Positions 5,887 through 14,199 of a stretch of DNA of 64,000 nucleotides are shown one piece after another; within the stretch, counting starts at the first letter, position 1; each line of letters begins with the position of its first letter. The notes under the pieces are model-generated. The model did no database searches, had not been told where the DNA came from, and worked only from the letters and a program-made list of their open reading frames with translations. The stretch is from positions 1 through 64,000 of the forward strand of contig MGOY01000030.1 in assembly GCA_001797275.1 (NCBI GenBank). The letters run 5' to 3'. This stretch comes from Clostridiales bacterium GWF2_38_85. Its GTDB lineage: Bacteria > Bacillota > Clostridia > Oscillospirales > CAG-382. The position numbers were made by a program, and so were the translations under genes.

Positions 5887-6342
5887 ATGAAGTGTCCAAC
5901 ATGTTCTCATCTCGAAAGTAAAGTTATTGACTCCAGGCCTTCAACTGAAGGCGATTCAATACGCCGCAGACGCGAATGCTTGAATTGCCAAAAACGGTTC
6001 ACTACATATGAAACAATTGAGACAATTCCTATTATGGTAATTAAAAAGGATAAGTCTCGTGAAAGCTTTGATCGGAATAAAATTCTCATGAGCATTATCA
6101 GAGCATGTAATAAACGTCAGGTTTCACGAAATGATATGGAAAGAATCGTCAACGAAATTGAACTTCAAGTTCAGAATTCACTTCAAAACGAAGTGCCTTC
6201 TTCATATATCGGTGAGCTTGTTATGAATAAACTCAAAGCTTTAGATGAGGTTGCTTACATCAGATTTGCTTCTGTTTACAGGCAGTTTAAGGACATAACT
6301 GATTTCATGGATGAGTTAAACAATTTAATGACACAAAAATAA
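5887..6342 (+). CDS. nrdR: Transcriptional repressor NrdR
   Basis: NrdR represses ribonucleotide reductase genes in response to dATP/ATP. The 151-residue length is typical. The zinc ribbon has Cys3, Cys6, Cys31 and Cys34 (CPTC and CLNC), followed by an RRRREC segment. The ATP-cone domain spans residues ~48-138, with the [16 protein letters not shown] start typical of the family. TGGGAG precedes the ATG. The gene is monocistronic, with a terminator shared with the convergent envelope operon. No NrdR box pair is visible in its own promoter. Confidence 0.97.
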
Positions 6343-6348
6343 AAATAA

Positions 6349-6384
6349 AAAAGCAGCAGGTGATGTCAATTCCCTGTTGCTTTT
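6349..6384. terminator. Bidirectional terminator between nrdR and the LytM-like gene
   Basis: AAAAGCAGCAGG (6349-6360) pairs with CCTGTTGCTTTT (6373-6384) with one mismatch. A-rich and T-rich flanks serve both convergent genes. Confidence 0.75.
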
Positions 6385-6399
6385 AATTTTGATTTTTAA

Positions 6400-8004
6400 T
6401 TAACTTAATTTTATACCTTCCTCAAGTAAAATATCAGGATTTACAAGTATACCGTTAACCGATGCTGCAAACATAAATTCATTTCCTGTAACATACCCAG
6501 TATTACCGCTTAAACCTATTGTTACACCTTTTTTAACATTTACATTCTCTGATACACTAATTGATTTCAGATGACAATAAATAGTTTGTATACCCATGCC
6601 ATGGTCAATAATTATTGTTTTGCCTGTTAATTCTGTCTCACCGGCAAATATTACTTTCCCAGCTTCCGAGGATTTCACGGATGTTCCTTGAGTTACGTTA
6701 AAAACATTACCGGGGCAGGATACGGATGCCGGATCGGGATCATAGAATAATTCATCACTATAATAATATTTTGCTTCTCCTGAAATAGGATCTAAGAAAG
6801 TTATACCATCTTCTATGTATAAAAGATTCTCGCTTCTAATATATGAGTTTAATAACAGTTCATTGAATTCGGTATACGCAGATGATGATAAAGTTTTTGT
6901 AGGAGTTATGTGATAAATTGTGTTATCAACCTGATTTACCGTTATATCAAAATTTGTTTCTCTTCCGCCTGCTTTAAGCTTCATTGAATAGATACCCGGA
7001 GAATTCTTATTGCTAATCGGTAATAAAGCTATATACTTGGGATCACAATTAAAAAATTTCAAATCTGAAGTTTTAAGATTTGTTTCTATAACGATAACTT
7101 CAGAAGAATCCAGGAAACTTGCATTAATTGTTAAAATATCACCTTGCGATAATTGTTCACTTGAAATGGTAAATTTGGCGGGTATATCATATCTGGCATT
7201 AATTTTATATTCGGCAATACCGTATGTAGTATTTGTTTCGGTCTGATTCCACTTTGCATGAACATAAATAACAAGTGACATATCGGTACCAAAGGATAAT
7301 TGAGATATATTCAAGGAGTCTGACTGATAAATACGATTCCCTACATAATCATAAACATCAATAGAAACAACATCCGGTGCTTCTACAAATTGAAGTACAT
7401 TTACCATGTCTGAAAACAGCTCATATTCAGATACATCATCGCTTTGCAGTTCAGTTTGTGTGTCTTTATAATATGTATTATCACTCTTCCTATAATTCCA
7501 AGTATACTCAACAGGTAGTACTTTTGATTGTATTCCGCTAGCTGTAATAGTCAACTCTGGTAGTTTTGCATTATCATATAAATATACTAATTCATCACGT
7601 AATAATAATTTTTCTGAAGTCTCCTCATCTAAAAGCAAATATTCACCATCCGGAGACAACATAAAACATTCTTTTGCATCAAGCGAAGGAAACAATAAAT
7701 AATCAACTTGCTTATCCGGTCTTTGATATCCTATGACAACAGCACTTTCGCTTTCGTTATTGATATCTCTCGGAGCTTTTGATATTTTATGTGCATCAAG
7801 CATTGCATTTAAATAAAAATCAACATTAGTCTTATCTGTATATAGAATTATCTCATCCGATGGAAGAGTTATATTAACCTGGTTTATATCCTTAGCAGCT
7901 ATATTATGTGATGAATACACAATAATCAGGTAAATAATAAATATTACGGGCAGACACAGTATTAATGAAATTGCAATATTCAATGTTTTTTTGCCGTTAT
8001 TCAA
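6400..8004 (-). CDS. Membrane-anchored protein with degenerate LytM (peptidase M23) domain
   Basis: This 534-residue protein has an N-terminal transmembrane anchor (~residues 9-30), a long extracytoplasmic beta-rich region and a C-terminal LytM fold (~425-525), recognisable by GKVIFAGE, IIIDHGMGIQTIYCHL and VKKGVTIGLSGNTG. The catalytic set is incomplete. The usual first zinc motif HxxxD is replaced by the segment around GNVFNVTQGTSV. The final HxH is replaced by EFMFAAS. Only the His of YCHL is kept. It is therefore probably a non-catalytic peptidoglycan-binding or regulatory LytM protein, as known for SpoIIQ- or EnvC-like proteins. The start is TTG with GGGGAG upstream. It is last in the operon 10480-6400. 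Confidence 0.8.
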   Translation of the reverse strand: MNNGKKTLNIAISLILCLPVIFIIYLIIVYSSHNIAAKDINQVNITLPSDEIILYTDKTNVDFYLNAMLDAHKISKAPRDINNESESAVVIGYQRPDKQVDYLLFPSLDAKECFMLSPDGEYLLLDEETSEKLLLRDELVYLYDNAKLPELTITASGIQSKVLPVEYTWNYRKSDNTYYKDTQTELQSDDVSEYELFSDMVNVLQFVEAPDVVSIDVYDYVGNRIYQSDSLNISQLSFGTDMSLVIYVHAKWNQTETNTTYGIAEYKINARYDIPAKFTISSEQLSQGDILTINASFLDSSEVIVIETNLKTSDLKFFNCDPKYIALLPISNKNSPGIYSMKLKAGGRETNFDITVNQVDNTIYHITPTKTLSSSAYTEFNELLLNSYIRSENLLYIEDGITFLDPISGEAKYYYSDELFYDPDPASVSCPGNVFNVTQGTSVKSSEAGKVIFAGETELTGKTIIIDHGMGIQTIYCHLKSISVSENVNVKKGVTIGLSGNTGYVTGNEFMFAASVNGILVNPDILLEEGIKLS

Positions 8005-8032
8005 TTTCTACTCCCCTTTCGAAAATTCAATT

Positions 8033-8491
8033 TTATTTGATATATTTTTTAATTATATTTGTTGCTGTACTTATGTCATCATTTACAATCAGATATACAA
8101 ATAAGCCTTTCCTTACAACTCCAGTTTTATTGAAAATTGCATACATAGCAGGAGAATAATCTTGTGAACGTGTTTTTTGTACACCTAAATATTTATCTAA
8201 TTTATCATAAATAATTTGAGAATTATTGTCATCAGTTGCTTTGAATATAAAAATTCTATTCGCTTGTAAAGCATCGCTTGGTAATAAACTAACTTTTTCG
8301 GTAAACATATCAGTTTTTATGCCCATATCTTGCAATATAGTGTCATCGCTTGCTGGATATAATTCTGTAAACGTTACGTTGCTTGTTATTTCATCAACAA
8401 TATCCTGAATTGGTGGTACTTCCACAGATTTACATGCTGAAATATTTACAATAATGATAAATATAAAAATTATTGATAAAATTTTTCTCAT
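8033..8491 (-). CDS. DUF4358-like lipoprotein
   Basis: This 152-residue protein starts with a lipoprotein signal peptide whose lipobox is ISAC (Cys20), so it is predicted to be anchored outside the membrane. The remainder, with TELYPASDDTILQDMGI and a C-terminal segment about a possibly failed reading (YAIFNKTGVVRKGLFVYLIV), resembles the DUF4358 family of Clostridia, whose function is unknown. I placed the start at 8491 because AGGAG is 7 nt upstream. The ATG at 8497 is too close to that site. Only 10 nt separate it from the preceding SGNH gene, so it belongs to the same operon. Confidence 0.75.
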   Translation of the reverse strand: MRKILSIIFIFIIIVNISACKSVEVPPIQDIVDEITSNVTFTELYPASDDTILQDMGIKTDMFTEKVSLLPSDALQANRIFIFKATDDNNSQIIYDKLDKYLGVQKTRSQDYSPAMYAIFNKTGVVRKGLFVYLIVNDDISTATNIIKKYIK

Positions 8492-8501
8492 AAACATTCT
8501 C

Positions 8502-9476
8502 CTACTTATCAGATCCTAAAAGCATAGTTTTTATATTTTGATATTGACCTAATATTTTATCCGCTGCATAACCTCTGAAAATTTCAATCCATCTATCATA
8601 GTATTGATAATACAAATGAACATAATGATCTGGGCTATATTCAGATATTAAATAACCTTCATCATCAGTAAGGCAAGTGGAAATATCAATATAATCATAT
8701 CCATTATCATTACAAAACTGGAGCATCAATTCATTACATTCCCGCGTTACTTCGTTTGTTCTGCCTAAATCTGGCTTTTCGCCTTCCCTAACATAGTAAG
8801 ATGTGCTTGTTATTATAATTTCGACATCAGGTGATTTTTCGAGTATCTTATTTATTAATTTTTCTGCATTACTGATTCCAGTTGTTGCATATGAACCCGC
8901 AAAATCATTTAATCCAAGCATAATAAATACTTTTGAAACTTTTGCTTCTGCAATTGCGTCCCATACCGGCATCTGCTCACCGTTGTATGTTGGATGTAAT
9001 GAAGAATTTTCTTTCAAAGCATTATAAAAGCCATAACTTTCAGAACATAAAAATAATGGATTAGCAAAATAATTTGAATCTGAAAGCAATTTTGCTTGAA
9101 CTCTTGCTTTTAATCCGACTGCTATAGAATCACCAATAAACGCAGAATTATTAAAATACTCATTACATTCTTGTATTGTCAATCCGTGCAAATCAGTATC
9201 CTGAACTATCGGAGGCTCCGAAGGTTCACTAACTTCAGATACAGTAGATTCTTCTTCGGATGTAGTTTCACTGCTGGTATCCTGTGAATTATCAATACTT
9301 GTGTTTGATTCCATTGTAGATATTGTATTTGATGTTATAGATTCATTGTTTGAAATAGTTGAATTTGAATCTTCCGGCTTGCTTTCATCTTTATTAAATT
9401 CACATGCATTTAGAAAAGTAACTGTCATTATTATATATGCTAAAAATAAAGATATGTATTTAATGCTTTTTTTCAT
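8502..9476 (-). CDS. SGNH/GDSL-hydrolase lipoprotein
   Basis: This 324-residue predicted lipoprotein has the lipobox LNAC (Cys25). A Ser/Thr/Glu-rich disordered linker (~residues 30-92) leads to an SGNH hydrolase domain. The catalytic Ser117 lies in FIGDSIAVG (block I), GLND is the oxyanion block III, and D-x-x-H is seen as SPDHYVH near the C-terminus. SGNH enzymes of this kind remove or transfer O-acyl groups on envelope polysaccharides. The substrate here is unknown. It is the second gene of the operon, 23 nt after a paralogue with the same architecture. GAAAGGA precedes the ATG. Confidence 0.85.
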   Translation of the reverse strand: MKKSIKYISLFLAYIIMTVTFLNACEFNKDESKPEDSNSTISNNESITSNTISTMESNTSIDNSQDTSSETTSEEESTVSEVSEPSEPPIVQDTDLHGLTIQECNEYFNNSAFIGDSIAVGLKARVQAKLLSDSNYFANPLFLCSESYGFYNALKENSSLHPTYNGEQMPVWDAIAEAKVSKVFIMLGLNDFAGSYATTGISNAEKLINKILEKSPDVEIIITSTSYYVREGEKPDLGRTNEVTRECNELMLQFCNDNGYDYIDISTCLTDDEGYLISEYSPDHYVHLYYQYYDRWIEIFRGYAADKILGQYQNIKTMLLGSDK

Positions 9477-9499
9477 ATTTCAAATTCCTTTCATTTCAA

Positions 9500-10480
9500 C
9501 TATTCAAATTGCATTGTCATCGAAGAAACATTTTTATAATTACTATCTAATTTTGAAGCAGCATATGCTCTGAATATATTCGTCCATATATCATATGCGG
9601 GATCATATAGATGACATTCATTATCGCTGCAATAATCAGGCTTCAAATACCCGTTATCAGTTGCCAGAGCGGTTGCAACATCAATATAATCCATACTGTT
9701 TTCATTGCAATACTCAAGCATCAGTTGATTTAGTTTACGAAGATTCTTTGAGGTTAAATTAGTAAGTGACTTTTCCCAGTCTTCATATAAATATGTCGCA
9801 CTTATTATTATTATTTCAACATCCGGAGATTTTTCTTTTATGCGTGAGAACAATGTTTTATAATTTTTAAGTGTTTCTTCGGGTCCTGTCCCATTATTAT
9901 ATTTACCAACATCGTTGAGTCCAAAAAGTATAAATACTTTTTTTACTCCCATTAATGCAACAGCGTCTTCAATTTTAGTTTGTTCGCCTTGATACATAGG
10001 ATGAACTGATTTATCTGATATTGGCCATAATGCACTTTCCGCACCATAGCTGCCTGCAACATGAAATTTTACACTACTCATAAATTCTGAGTTCGTCAAA
10101 CGTTTTCTGTCAATATAGGATTTATAACCAAGCATTACGGAATCGCCGACAAAAACCGACTCTTTGAAGTACTCATCACATTCCTTCGCAGTATATCTGC
10201 TCCAGTCTGTGCTTTGTTCTGTAACTACGCTTGGATTACTTTGATCAGTGCTTGATTCGAGAGTTGAATTATCGGGACTTTCGTTTTTTGAATTGTCTGA
10301 TGATACTTCTGTACTTGAATTTTCTGAATTGTCAGAAATTGTAGATACAACCGGAGCCTTTGAATTAATCTGTGAATCATTATTGGAGTTTTCATTTGGC
10401 AACGGTATTGTTACACAGGATATTAATACTGCAATAAGCACCGCAAAGCCAATAATTAGTGTAAGAACCTTAAATTTCAT
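9500..10480 (-). CDS. SGNH/GDSL-hydrolase lipoprotein (paralogue)
   Basis: This is the first gene of the envelope operon. The lipobox LISC puts the lipidated Cys at residue 22. A Ser/Asn/Thr-rich linker (~residues 30-92) precedes the SGNH domain, with Ser114 in FVGDSVML, GLND, and the catalytic Asp-His as SDNECHL. I chose ATG 10480 (326 residues): a longer open frame to 10537 would start upstream of the promoter -10 box at 10523-10528. CAGGG lies about 9 nt upstream. The two SGNH genes look like a tandem duplication that has diverged. Likely role: extracytoplasmic deacylation or acyl transfer on cell-wall glycans (inference). Confidence 0.85.
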   Translation of the reverse strand: MKFKVLTLIIGFAVLIAVLISCVTIPLPNENSNNDSQINSKAPVVSTISDNSENSSTEVSSDNSKNESPDNSTLESSTDQSNPSVVTEQSTDWSRYTAKECDEYFKESVFVGDSVMLGYKSYIDRKRLTNSEFMSSVKFHVAGSYGAESALWPISDKSVHPMYQGEQTKIEDAVALMGVKKVFILFGLNDVGKYNNGTGPEETLKNYKTLFSRIKEKSPDVEIIIISATYLYEDWEKSLTNLTSKNLRKLNQLMLEYCNENSMDYIDVATALATDNGYLKPDYCSDNECHLYDPAYDIWTNIFRAYAASKLDSNYKNVSSMTMQFE

Positions 10481-10522
10481 GTAATATACCCTGCCATTCG
10501 GTGATAATCTCAATTGAGTATA

Positions 10523-10551
10523 ATTATACATCATCATAAATATTATGTCAA
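10523..10551 (-). promoter_or_regulatory. Consensus sigma-A promoter of the SGNH/LytM operon
   Basis: On the minus strand TTGACA (10546-10551), exactly 17 nt, TATAAT (10523-10528): a perfect match to consensus. It implies strong vegetative expression and a leader of about 36 nt. Confidence 0.85.
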
Positions 10552-10648: not shown

Positions 10649-12076
10649 ATGCCTTTTCAAGATAATAACATAGAAATTATTGAAAATGAACTACAAAAAA
10701 GATTTATTAATTGTTGTGATTTTAATAACAACAGAATCAACTGCGATGAAGCTGTTGTCGGTATATATTTTTTTAGCTATATAACCGAACGCATTTTTAT
10801 GACAGACAGGATTATAAAATCAATTATAGATAAAAAAGATAAAATTAAAGAATTTAACGGTAAATTCGAAGCTTTAATTCCTGTAAATATTTTTTCTGAT
10901 TTTATTTCTATAGATGATTCTGTTATTAAAATTCTTGATGGTTATACGCTTGTTTGTATTCAGATCAAAGAAAGATGTTATCTTTCGCTCTGCAAAGCTG
11001 ATGATGTAATCGGGCGATCTGTCAGCAATCCAAACACAGAAGGAGCATTAAGAGGATCCTATTCTGCTTTTGTTGAAGACATAAGGAAAAATATTGCAAT
11101 GATGCGGCAAATATTAAGGACAGATAAACTTAAAATCGAACAATTTATTATTGGTAAGCTTTCGAACACACGAATTGCGATATGTTATATAGAAGGTAGA
11201 GCAAAAAAGCAGGTTATTGATGAGGTCAAGCGAAGAATTTTTGATGCGGACATAACATCGGTTATGGATTCCGCATATATAGAAATTGCATTTGAAAAAA
11301 GTCCTTCCCTCTTCAGAACAGCAGGCTCAACCGAGAAACCTGATAAAGCTTGTTCGAAATTGATATCCGGCAGAGTTGCAATTGTTGTTGATGGCAGTCC
11401 CTTTGTTTTAACTGTACCATATATTTTTGTAGAAAATCTTCAATCTACCGAAGATTATTTAAAATCTCCTATATATTCAACATTTATCAGAACTATCAGA
11501 TTTATTGCTATTCTGATATCTGTTTACTTACCCTCAGTATTTATAGCAGCGGTTTCGGATGATATCAAACTTTTGCCTCTTGAATTGCTTTTATCAATCA
11601 GTACAGCACGTCGAAATATAGCCTACAGTTTATTCGGCGAAATACTTTTGATGCTGATAATATTTGAAATTATTCGTGAAGTCGGTATCAGAATGCCTAA
11701 ATCGGTAGGTAATGCTGTCGGTATTGTAGGTTCGATTATTCTTGGCGATGCAGCTGTAAAAGCAGGTATTGCCAGTACAACAGTTATAATTGTTGTTGCA
11801 CTTACAGCGATTTCAAACTTTGTATTACCGCCATATGTCGACTCAACTGTAATATTAAGATTCGGATTTTTATTTGCAGCATATTTTCTTTCATTCTTTG
11901 GTATATTTGCTTTAACACTAATAATCTTGACTCGTTTATGCAGCAAAGACAGCTTTGGTACACCGTATATGATGCCAATTTCGCCTTTAGATAAAGAGGG
12001 ATTATCAGATTTTATAACTGTTGTTCCGAAAAAAGTGCTTGGCAGAGCCGAAAAAGGAGTAACAAAGGATAAATAA
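10649..12076 (+). CDS. Spore germination receptor A subunit (GerA/SpoVAF family)
   Basis: A subunit of nutrient germinant receptors in the inner spore membrane. The 475-residue length is normal. The N-terminal cytosolic domain (residues ~1-250) contains the family signature around NPNTEGALRGSYSAFVEDIRKNIAMMR. Next comes the GRVAIVVDGSPFVLTVPYIF segment, followed by about five transmembrane helices (~280-445), including the SISTARR and GIVGSIILGDAAVKAGI segments. CGAAAGGAAC precedes the ATG. It opens an operon with two or three reduced partner genes. A divergent promoter drives the envelope operon on the other strand. The subfamily (GerAA or SpoVAF) cannot be decided by eye. Confidence 0.93.
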   Translation: MPFQDNNIEIIENELQKRFINCCDFNNNRINCDEAVVGIYFFSYITERIFMTDRIIKSIIDKKDKIKEFNGKFEALIPVNIFSDFISIDDSVIKILDGYTLVCIQIKERCYLSLCKADDVIGRSVSNPNTEGALRGSYSAFVEDIRKNIAMMRQILRTDKLKIEQFIIGKLSNTRIAICYIEGRAKKQVIDEVKRRIFDADITSVMDSAYIEIAFEKSPSLFRTAGSTEKPDKACSKLISGRVAIVVDGSPFVLTVPYIFVENLQSTEDYLKSPIYSTFIRTIRFIAILISVYLPSVFIAAVSDDIKLLPLELLLSISTARRNIAYSLFGEILLMLIIFEIIREVGIRMPKSVGNAVGIVGSIILGDAAVKAGIASTTVIIVVALTAISNFVLPPYVDSTVILRFGFLFAAYFLSFFGIFALTLIILTRLCSKDSFGTPYMMPISPLDKEGLSDFITVVPKKVLGRAEKGVTKDK

Positions 12077-12080
12077 TTTT

Positions 12081-12641
12081 ATGAAAAAAAGAATGCTTGT
12101 TATTAGTGCAATTATTATAATCGCTATATCTGTATCTTTTTTTGAAACACGCAATCCTATAACAGCATATTGCATTGGCTTGACTGTGCAAAAAGAGAAT
12201 AATGAAATAATTTATGGATTTATTATTGCGAAACTTGAAGAGGAAGGTGCTTCAATTGAAGTTACTTTAATAAAACAAAACGGTAAATTTTCTTACGCGT
12301 TACAAAGCCTGAAGGAAAGTGATATCCTATTATTTTATCCGACCGTTAAGGGCATATATATATGTCGAGATATTAACAAAACAGAAATTGATGATATGTT
12401 GAATACAATATTTGAGATGCATTCATTCCCTACCGATATAACTGTTGTAATGACTAATGATCCAAACAAATTAATTCTCGAAAAAGATATTGGATCCGGA
12501 ATCTCTGGCGCTTTATTCATACCAAAATTAATTGAAAATCAGAAACGAAAAGTTACTTTAATTGATTACGCCAAAGGTAAAGAAATCCCCCTGATTTGTT
12601 ATCAAAACGGACAGTTCAATATACAAAAACAGACTGATTAA
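12081..12641 (+). CDS. Short GerC-position protein of the germination operon
   Basis: This 186-residue protein has an N-terminal signal/anchor (residues ~5-21) and a small alpha/beta domain. It occupies the place of the C subunit, which is normally a lipoprotein of about 370 residues. No lipobox Cys follows the hydrophobic segment. The opening ITAYCIGLTVQKENNEIIYGF resembles the first GerC strands (AIGIDKTEDG-like), followed by RDINKTEIDDML. It may retain only the first GerC domain. It starts 4 nt after the GerA gene. Function is inferred from position. Confidence 0.6.
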   Translation: MKKRMLVISAIIIIAISVSFFETRNPITAYCIGLTVQKENNEIIYGFIIAKLEEEGASIEVTLIKQNGKFSYALQSLKESDILLFYPTVKGIYICRDINKTEIDDMLNTIFEMHSFPTDITVVMTNDPNKLILEKDIGSGISGALFIPKLIENQKRKVTLIDYAKGKEIPLICYQNGQFNIQKQTD

Positions 12642-12660: not shown

Positions 12661-13470
12661 ATGAATAAATTCTCGGCAGTATCAATTTGCACTATATGTT
12701 TATATGCGAACTCAATTATTTTTCCGATAGCTTCATGGCAGGAAGCCGCTGTTGCGTGTAGTATTGGTTTTATTTTCGCTCTGTTTTTATGGTCAGTTTA
12801 TAATCTTAAAATTCCTTTAAAACATTTTTCGGTTATTTTTATTTTAATGTCTGCCAATGAATTGATCATATATTCAACAACAACAAAAAGCTTTCTTGCG
12901 GATAACACGGTTACAATATTAATCACTTCGATATCAATATGCATATTTTTATTATATGCCGGTATAAAATCAATGACTTATCTTGCGCAGATATTGATAT
13001 GGTCTATTCCTTTATTATTTTTACTTTTTATTTTTGCACTAAATGGCTATAAAATTGAATTTTCGAATGATAACGATTACTTTTTCACGGGATTGAACAA
13101 TATTTTTAAATTTATTCTACCTATGATTTTACTCATGGTATTGATAAGAGAAAGCAAAGGTACAAGAAATCACTTTCTAGCTGGAATTTCAATTGGTTTA
13201 GTTACAGTGTTATTGCAGGGTGTGATAACTTCCATTTTCGGCTCAACGATTATTAAGAATCAGCATCCGTTACTCGTCTGTGCAAAACAGTCAGGATTGC
13301 CTCTTGAAGTAATTTTATTAGGCACCATTACTTTTGCCGGTATAATAAAAATCGCGGCATATCTAATAGGAGCACAAACTTTATTAAAAAAATATAAATA
13401 TAAAAATTTGCATATTCTTATTTTATTTTTAGCGACAGTTGCAATTATATATTTAACTACACCCACATAG
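12661..13470 (+). CDS. Short GerB-like membrane protein of the germination operon
   Basis: This 269-residue, highly hydrophobic protein has about eight predicted helices. GerB proteins are ten-helix APC-superfamily transporter homologues of about 360 residues that sense the germinant. The ASWQEAAVACSIGFIFALFLWSVY and FILPMILLMVLIRESKGTRN segments and the operon position support the assignment. The N-terminal unwound helix typical of the family (the Gly-rich Q..FF.....G start) is not obvious, so the protein looks shortened at the N-terminus. It has AAGGAA upstream and is followed by the DUF3298-like gene. Confidence 0.6.
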   Translation: MNKFSAVSICTICLYANSIIFPIASWQEAAVACSIGFIFALFLWSVYNLKIPLKHFSVIFILMSANELIIYSTTTKSFLADNTVTILITSISICIFLLYAGIKSMTYLAQILIWSIPLLFLLFIFALNGYKIEFSNDNDYFFTGLNNIFKFILPMILLMVLIRESKGTRNHFLAGISIGLVTVLLQGVITSIFGSTIIKNQHPLLVCAKQSGLPLEVILLGTITFAGIIKIAAYLIGAQTLLKKYKYKNLHILILFLATVAIIYLTTPT

Positions 13471-13506
13471 AATTTAATAATGAATCAAAATGGAGGTACA
13501 CAGGTT

Positions 13507-14199
13507 ATGATTTATAAGTCGTTCGACTATCAGAGTGATTTTTCAAAATATTCTGTACAACAAAAGCAAATTAAAGAATCAATAAAGCAAGACGAAAAAA
13601 GATTGGTTGAAATTAACATTAATTATCCGGAAATGATAAAAGCTGATTTCGAGCCAAAAACTGCTGTAAAAATGTCTGATTACTATAAAAGAATGGCTAT
13701 GGGATTTGCTGATTTTGCTCGTAAAAAACTAAAAGAAGAAGCTATAAAGAATATTAGTAATTTAAATTCACCATATAGTGTAGTAATGAAATACATACCT
13801 ACATTCGAAAATACGGCATTAATTTCAATAGTTACCGATGTTTTTGTATATTATAATTCAATTCGTTCTGAAACAGAAAGGATATCTAACATTTTTCTTA
13901 AAACAAAGTTTGGTTTATTGAATTTCACTGACTTCTTTAGGTCTGAAGTAAAAAGATTGATTATAAATTATATACTTGAAAATTCAATTAATACTTTTAC
14001 TTCTGATTCATTATACAACAATTATCAGGATCTTATAAAAAAGAATTTTAAAGTTAAAAATTTATTTCTGTGTGAAAACGGATATGGATTCTATTATAAC
14101 GCAGGAATATTGTCAGCAAATATAATGCCATCAGTATACATAATACCTTTTGGTACATTCGGTGATAAGGAAATCGGACTGCACTTTATAAAAACATGA
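13507..14199 (+). CDS. Soluble protein with RsiV/DUF3298-like C-terminus
   Basis: This 230-residue protein has no signal peptide or transmembrane segment. Its C-terminal third (NLFLCENGYGFYYNAGILSANIMPSVYIIPFGTF) resembles the DUF3298 domain of RsiV-like proteins, where a substrate-binding fold is known. The N-terminal half is helical and charged. I chose ATG 13507 because GGAGG (13492-13496) is 10 nt upstream. An in-frame ATG at 13480 precedes that site. It is the fourth gene of the germination operon, an unusual partner whose function I cannot assign. Confidence 0.6.
   Translation: MIYKSFDYQSDFSKYSVQQKQIKESIKQDEKRLVEININYPEMIKADFEPKTAVKMSDYYKRMAMGFADFARKKLKEEAIKNISNLNSPYSVVMKYIPTFENTALISIVTDVFVYYNSIRSETERISNIFLKTKFGLLNFTDFFRSEVKRLIINYILENSINTFTSDSLYNNYQDLIKKNFKVKNLFLCENGYGFYYNAGILSANIMPSVYIIPFGTFGDKEIGLHFIKT

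Follow-up and report, generated by a model that had tools for sequence, protein, structure and literature searches.

We analysed a minus-strand block of four open reading frames (ORFs), running from position 10480 down to 6400, in a 64,000-nucleotide (nt) stretch of DNA (the window) from Clostridiales bacterium GWF2_38_85. The block encodes two SGNH lipoproteins (A and B), a DUF4358 lipoprotein, and a membrane-anchored LytM/M23 protein, and all four products score above their Pfam cut-offs: Lipase_GDSL_2 for A (53.5 bits) and B (52.6 bits; cut-off 32.9), DUF4358 (55.9 bits; cut-off 25), and Peptidase_M23 (77.2 bits; cut-off 28.7). A first-pass annotation, made from the sequence alone, had described four genes separated by 23, 10, and 28 nt, one perfect-consensus promoter, and three consecutive lipoboxes. 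The ORF coordinates reproduce these gaps; a motif scan returned a single 12/12 consensus site, TTGACA-17-TATAAT, the only one in the 5.2 kb scanned; and the lipobox-like patterns LISC, LNAC, and ISAC were seen in the A, B, and DUF4358 proteins, respectively, all three of which are predicted to be lipid anchored.

Because the longer ORF start of SGNH A, at 10537, falls within the promoter, the start of this gene was set at ATG 10480. The DUF4358 gene most likely begins at ATG 8491, whose ribosome-binding site is better placed than that of a second in-frame ATG at 8497, and the LytM gene most likely begins at TTG 8004, with a purine-rich ribosome-binding site ahead of it, as for the DUF4358 gene. 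A terminator-like hairpin beyond the last gene scores z -3.5 and -5.1 on its two strands (Table 1).

Table 1. Positions in the window of the operon, its signals, and its flanking genes.
Feature	Position	Strand	Basis or remark
Sigma-A-type promoter TTGACA-17-TATAAT, extended form TTGACATAAT	10523..10551	-	Motif scan, comparison across stretches
SGNH lipoprotein A (P0001, 326 aa)	9500..10480	-	LISC lipobox, 74-residue linker, Ser114, Asn189, Asp286, His290
SGNH lipoprotein B (P0002, 324 aa)	8502..9476	-	Tandem paralogue of A, 39% identity
DUF4358 lipoprotein (P0003, 152 aa)	8033..8491	-	Start ATG 8491
Membrane-anchored LytM/M23 protein (P0004, 534 aa, TTG start)	6400..8004	-	Pfam, alignment, model
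Terminator-like hairpin	6341..6392	both	Between LytM gene and nrdR
nrdR, convergent, conserved neighbour outside operon	5887..6342	+	Context
gerA-type germinant receptor gene, divergent conserved neighbour outside operon	10649..12076	+	Context

The LytM protein appears to have lost the zinc site of its family. By alignment, the metal-binding or catalytic positions are occupied in the window protein by C430, V434, E509, and M511, with only H478 retained, in agreement with the first-pass description of a LytM domain lacking HxxxD and the final HxH. Among 45 orthologues, neither HxxxD nor HxH occurs in any; at most three of the five residues are kept, and 16 orthologues keep none. Aligned residues thus gave no sign of an intact set of zinc ligands. 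Two other M23 proteins of the genome (L001 and L002) carry both motifs, while the pattern returned nothing for a third (L003). Outside these positions, H468 and Y476 are found in all 45 orthologues, and P19, W169, W252, G262, G288, G449, G461, H468, G469, and Y476 are invariant in 31 aligned LytM proteins. If its metal ligands had moved, the protein could still be an active peptidase, and of the 45 orthologues 10 do retain D434, 18 H478, and another set of 18 H511; however, H430 occurs in none and H509 in one, and H468 is the sole ligand-type residue of the LytM domain conserved in at least 85% of the 31 aligned proteins. We consider relocation highly unlikely, and reject an active M23 peptidase on the aligned residues. 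The simplest reading of the invariant residues together with the motif loss would be a non-catalytic LytM protein that is maintained by selection.

The fold of this protein was examined in the best of five AlphaFold2 models, built from 8 sequences (mean predicted local distance difference test score [pLDDT] 82.1, predicted template-modelling score 0.60; other four models 67-75). The model has one transmembrane (TM) helix at residues 5-31, a beta-rich middle, a further domain from about residue 283, and the LytM domain at about 398-530; past residue 31, no helix is longer than 14 residues. In a VIA-align structural search, which informs on residues 283-534 and barely probes 35-280, 6jmy, a peptidoglycan peptidase, gave the best match (Z 25.9, with 243 residues aligned between 283 and 534 of the model), and other LytM matches included the EnvC LytM domain (4bh5, Z 19.1) and SpoIIQ (3tuf, Z 17.1). 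Membership in the NCBIfam LytM families was rejected, all scores falling below the cut-offs: EnvC (NF008644, 30 against 270 bits), NlpD (NF008123, 19.8 against 311), ActS (NF040883, 21.7 against 375), SpoIIQ (NF053738, 28.1 against 250), and the Pgp3-type family (NF052530, 75.6 against 300).

We searched all 63 available genomes of the family for LytM orthologues (E at most 1e-18) and found one in 56, including 31 of the 32 good genomes; among the seven genomes under threshold, at least one (G020) carries LytM in weaker pieces. DUF4358 lies directly upstream of LytM in 20 family genomes from six genera, contiguously in 18 and split over contig ends in two (G001 and G084; in G001 the DUF4358 contig also ends with the start of the LytM gene). 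The neighbourhood first described from a single genome is therefore conserved among relatives, those with names being metagenome-assembled Clostridia, Eubacteriales, and Firmicutes. Forty-five LytM loci were mapped, 42 from the family and 3 from other families. SGNH and DUF4358 both precede LytM in 14 of them (12 contiguous, 2 split), DUF4358 without SGNH does so in five, all from genus g6, and in one (G030) a contig edge cuts above DUF4358. A divergent GerA-type gene is present in 30 of the 45; in 14 the available stretch shows no GerA, and a contig edge truncates the remaining locus. NrdR adjoins in 25, mostly convergent, on the same strand in g6, and upstream in G024. The conserved order is GerA-(SGNH)-(DUF4358)-LytM-NrdR. 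The four-gene operon of the first-pass annotation holds in this genus, but elsewhere the operon has one, two, three, four (G008), or five genes, genus g1 and G008 having two SGNH copies, G012 three, and the remaining SGNH-bearing genomes one. The five SGNH-bearing genera keep the arrangement and the short gaps even at a LytM identity of only 25-34% to the window protein (52% within the genus).

The promoter is likewise shared. Exact TTGACA-N17-TATAAT sites number 107 genome-wide, compared with 1 for a reversed control, and the promoter is therefore ordinary in kind; what distinguishes it is its conservation between genera. In 27 of 46 stretches, the first module gene is preceded by a match to a strict cross-genome pattern, TTGAC[AT]-17-TA[TA]AAT, against 0.01 expected from Markov-shuffled sequence, a count that is partly circular because the pattern was designed after part of the upstream regions had been viewed. 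Among the 12 GerA-linked stretches unseen at that time (L075, L083, L085, L167-L170, L172-L176), nine carry it. It is present in 25 of the 30 GerA-bearing stretches, and in two of the misses (L081 and L082) both boxes are perfect but lie 16 nt apart; the upstream regions scanned in genus g7 gave no match. The longer TTGACATAAT form occurs in 16 of the 46 stretches. We do not claim a regulon for this extended form, which occurs in its exact version once in the genome and whose close variants resemble strong promoters in general. The promoter precedes whichever gene comes first, be it SGNH, DUF4358, or LytM, placing the SGNH-DUF4358 pair as a cassette between the promoter and LytM. We take LytM to be the core of the operon.

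The promoter is of vegetative type, and the operon is probably expressed vegetatively. Alternatively, the locus could be a sporulation or germination module, combining a degenerate LytM protein of the SpoIIQ kind with esterases that edit the cortex, next to a germinant receptor. The divergent GerA-type gene and the resemblance of the LytM domain to SpoIIQ, in both the structural and the NCBIfam comparison, point in this direction, but the vegetative-type consensus is conserved between genera, the SpoIIQ score is far below its cut-off, and 14 LytM loci show no GerA in the available stretch, with a fifteenth truncated at a contig edge. We regard such a module as improbable.

Beyond the gerA-type gene, the window encodes a GerAC-like protein of just 186 aa (12081-12641), for which only the N-terminal domain model matches (Spore_GerAC_N, 28.8 bits). 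Next to it, in the permease position, lies a 269-aa product (12661-13470) with no Pfam or NCBIfam match. A 239-aa protein (13480-14199), also without a Pfam or NCBIfam match, belongs to a cluster that is present in 17 loci fetched around this neighbourhood.

The two SGNH proteins were examined for catalytic residues. SGNH enzymes are described by conserved blocks, among them I, III, and V, with DxxH as the canonical block V motif. The Ser, Asn, and His of these three blocks (Ser114, Asn189, and His290, respectively) are invariant across 12 aligned SGNH proteins, and the linkers that follow the lipobox (74 residues in A, 73 in B) consist to 70-74% of S/T/N/Q/D/E. The first-pass claim of intact SGNH motifs after Ser/Thr linkers thus stands for Ser, Asn, His, and the linkers, but not for the block V Asp: both window proteins have D-x3-H, with Asp at His-4, in place of DxxH. 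In some orthologues the Asp is still more distant from the His, and block V reads ADGLH in the second copy of a sister genome, DGIH in L149, L151, and L152, and D-x3-H in two g7 relatives. Among 19 LytM-linked SGNH copies, block V was found in 18, 16 of which have a Cys directly ahead of the His, and 15 copies show a lipobox-like pattern; some of the misses, window gene A included, reflect an ORF start placed too far upstream. A model of SGNH A, built from 4 sequences (mean pLDDT 76.5, low across the linker), matched sialate O-acetylesterases at Z 18.6-18.9 (6xpm, 18.9), tied with putative acylhydrolases and with a designed scaffold, 9hi5, which occupied the very top VIA row; OatA (6vjp) and PatB (8tlb) both gave Z 14.7. 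The model comparison makes an esterase more probable than a transferase.

In the SGNH tree, the LytM-linked proteins group together (91/88; in 86% of bootstrap trees), and the nearest rows outside it are DUF4358-adjacent SGNHs of g7. SGNH copy number rose within the operon in three lineages (g1, G008, and G012); by the tree, duplication within the lineage accounts for G008 and is the favoured origin for G012 (93/98), the g1 case being left open. At E 0.001, the genome of the window holds no third relative of P0002.

We surveyed DUF4358 beyond the LytM operon. In 60 genomes, 46 matches exceeded the cut-off, 15 of them LytM-linked. For the other 31, an MBOAT match lies within 2.1 kb of eight (7 loci) and divergently at 3.6-3.9 kb from six more. 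In 6 of 21 mapped loci, an SGNH gene adjoins a DUF4358 gene that is not part of the LytM operon. For instance, L149 has the order SGNH-DUF4358-MBOAT-DHHW, and L151 (3663-8941; G050:C132) the order SGNH-DUF4358-ECF sigma-PdaC/DUF3298 (RsiV-like)-MBOAT-DHHW, while L148, L153, and L156 carry DUF4358-MBOAT-DHHW; in L162 and L164, the SGNH-DUF4358 pair adjoins phosphoglycerate mutase-type and radical SAM genes instead. The PdaC/DUF3298 and ECF sigma genes of L151 resemble the lysozyme-sensing SigV/RsiV pair that controls wall O-acetylation in Bacillus, and this operon is possibly a wall-stress regulon that includes DUF4358. The genome of the window has a single MBOAT gene, followed by genes for DHHW and a DUF4430 protein, on another contig (C45). 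As MBOAT was found in 36 of the 37 family members searched, its co-occurrence was dropped as evidence. In the literature searched, the name DUF4358 was found in a single paper, within a table of proteins; the company of SGNH, MBOAT, DHHW, and, once, an ECF sigma/RsiV-like pair gives this domain a testable role in O-acylation of the wall or of a wall polymer.

Two further kinds of DUF4358 locus were encountered in the survey. In L107 (5443-7236; G010:C33), a single protein resembling two tandem SGNH domains is encoded by a gene that overlaps a DUF4358 gene, followed by MBOAT. A second, longer type of DUF4358 (ORFs of about 180-205 aa) occurs within the family in L102 (7971-8582; G000:C10), L108, L159, L160, L165, and L166, and forms one branch of the tree (95/95); the L102 gene lies beside one for a Fumble/BadF-type kinase.

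We tentatively read the locus, with a confidence that stops a little short of even, as a vegetative envelope operon in which SGNH enzymes edit O-acyl groups, DUF4358 assists, and the non-catalytic LytM protein directs where editing takes place through contact with peptide or an amidase. On this view, a lipid anchor and a linker of some 70 residues tether each SGNH enzyme to the membrane; there the enzymes would strip O-acyl groups from a wall glycan or wall polymer or, less probably, transfer such groups to it, with DUF4358 as their accessory lipoprotein. The dead groove of the LytM domain would bind stem peptides or an amidase, as EnvC-type LytM factors do, and so place or time the editing, making the protein a scaffold or hydrolase regulator. 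The scheme rests on the operon-like layout, the conserved gene order and promoter, the fold matches (an esterase-like one for SGNH), the loss of the zinc motifs in all 45 orthologues, the grouping of the LytM-linked SGNHs, and the proximity of DUF4358 to MBOAT and DHHW genes in other genomes. Lipid anchoring, the substrate, the direction of the reaction, vegetative expression, and the physical coupling of LytM to the other products are the parts of it that we infer. The first-pass interpretation, in which a non-catalytic LytM protein recruits or regulates acyl-modifying enzymes, is thus supported in part, with recruitment or regulation of the SGNH enzymes by LytM as its conjectural element.

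Several results weigh against this scheme. Eleven of the 45 mapped loci consist of a lone LytM gene behind a divergent GerA, and 36 of the 56 LytM-bearing family genomes (some of them fragmented) have no DUF4358 directly upstream; LytM therefore does not need the cassette, and the link is not obligate. The block V Asp is displaced, as described above. By Pfam, the window operon includes no MBOAT or DHHW gene, and for 17 of the 31 DUF4358 matches outside the LytM operon there is no MBOAT within 4 kb. Further, the DUF4358 tree does not unite the LytM-linked copies, those of g1 and g12 standing apart with weak support, which counts against a single origin. As for gain or loss of the cassette, a tree analysis requires four changes of state, within a 32-row clade whose internal branching is poorly resolved; a single gain followed by losses is one possible account.

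The principal alternative is that the genes are positional neighbours only, with LytM acting as an independent amidase or hydrolase regulator of the EnvC/NlpD/DipM kind, and the cassette merely sharing a strong promoter and working with the MBOAT-DHHW pair elsewhere in the genome. This we consider a real, if doubtful, possibility. It would explain why LytM occurs without an adjacent DUF4358 in genera g3, g4, g5, g7, g9, and g10, why SGNH-DUF4358 stands beside MBOAT without LytM in L107, L149, and L151, and why the promoter is indifferent to the gene behind it; the MBOAT-DHHW pair at C45 is available in the same genome, and the window itself encodes an Amidase_3 protein (995-1822) whose N-terminal part includes a hydrophobic stretch. 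Simple adjacency sits less well with the persistence of the arrangement and its short gaps in five SGNH-bearing genera at such low LytM identity, with the grouping of the LytM-linked SGNHs, and with the rise in SGNH copy number inside the operon in three lineages. The Amidase_3 gene was not used as a candidate LytM partner, as it is a singleton in a clustering of the stretches available at that point and not a conserved neighbour in them.

A bolder version of the envelope-operon reading, which we think fairly unlikely in its entirety, makes the dead LytM protein a wall-reading scaffold that steers tethered O-acyl editors, and DUF4358 the adaptor of a widespread, undescribed MBOAT/DHHW O-acylation branch in Clostridia. 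If true, such a scaffold would couple glycan editing to peptide sensing. An M23 protein without the zinc motifs is present family-wide in these Clostridia, and its conserved promoter and gene order, together with residues beyond the LytM domain that do not vary, make a non-enzymatic role testable.

According to the accessible text of one report, M23 proteins without zinc have been described as interaction hubs, and LytM factors of the EnvC/NlpD/DipM type activate amidases (PMC9662197). The window protein is like these factors in having an M23 fold without the zinc motifs, and it matches the EnvC LytM domain structurally. EnvC has a long N-terminal coiled coil; unlike it, the window protein has a TM helix and a beta-rich stalk, and it scores far below the NCBIfam cut-offs for these families. 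Its best structural match, 6jmy, which we take to be Campylobacter Pgp3, agrees with its best NCBIfam match, the Pgp3-type model NF052530. Unlike 6jmy, which is titled a peptidase, the window protein lacks the site, carries about 280 extra N-terminal residues, and stays below the family cut-off. Among esterases, the SGNH proteins are most like the Bacteroides sialate O-acetylesterase (6njc/6xpg/6xpm/7pzg; Lipase_GDSL_2), the best natural HMMER match and one of the tied top structural matches, but they differ from it in their low identity (18-20%), in being lipoproteins with a long linker, and in having D-x3-H rather than D-x2-H. MBOAT and DHHW proteins form polysaccharide O-acetylation pairs, such as PatA1/PatB1 and CcsH/CcsI, as described in the available parts of PMC9487903 and PMC7710045. 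The locus recalls these systems in that DUF4358, with or without SGNH, adjoins such pairs in related genomes; unlike the PatA/PatB type, the window operon itself encodes neither MBOAT nor DHHW. Within the accessible portions of the literature searched, we found no description of this gene set, nor of any joint LytM/GDSL operon with peptidoglycan O-acetylation. Every domain of the operon is already known, and it is their combination that appears to be new.

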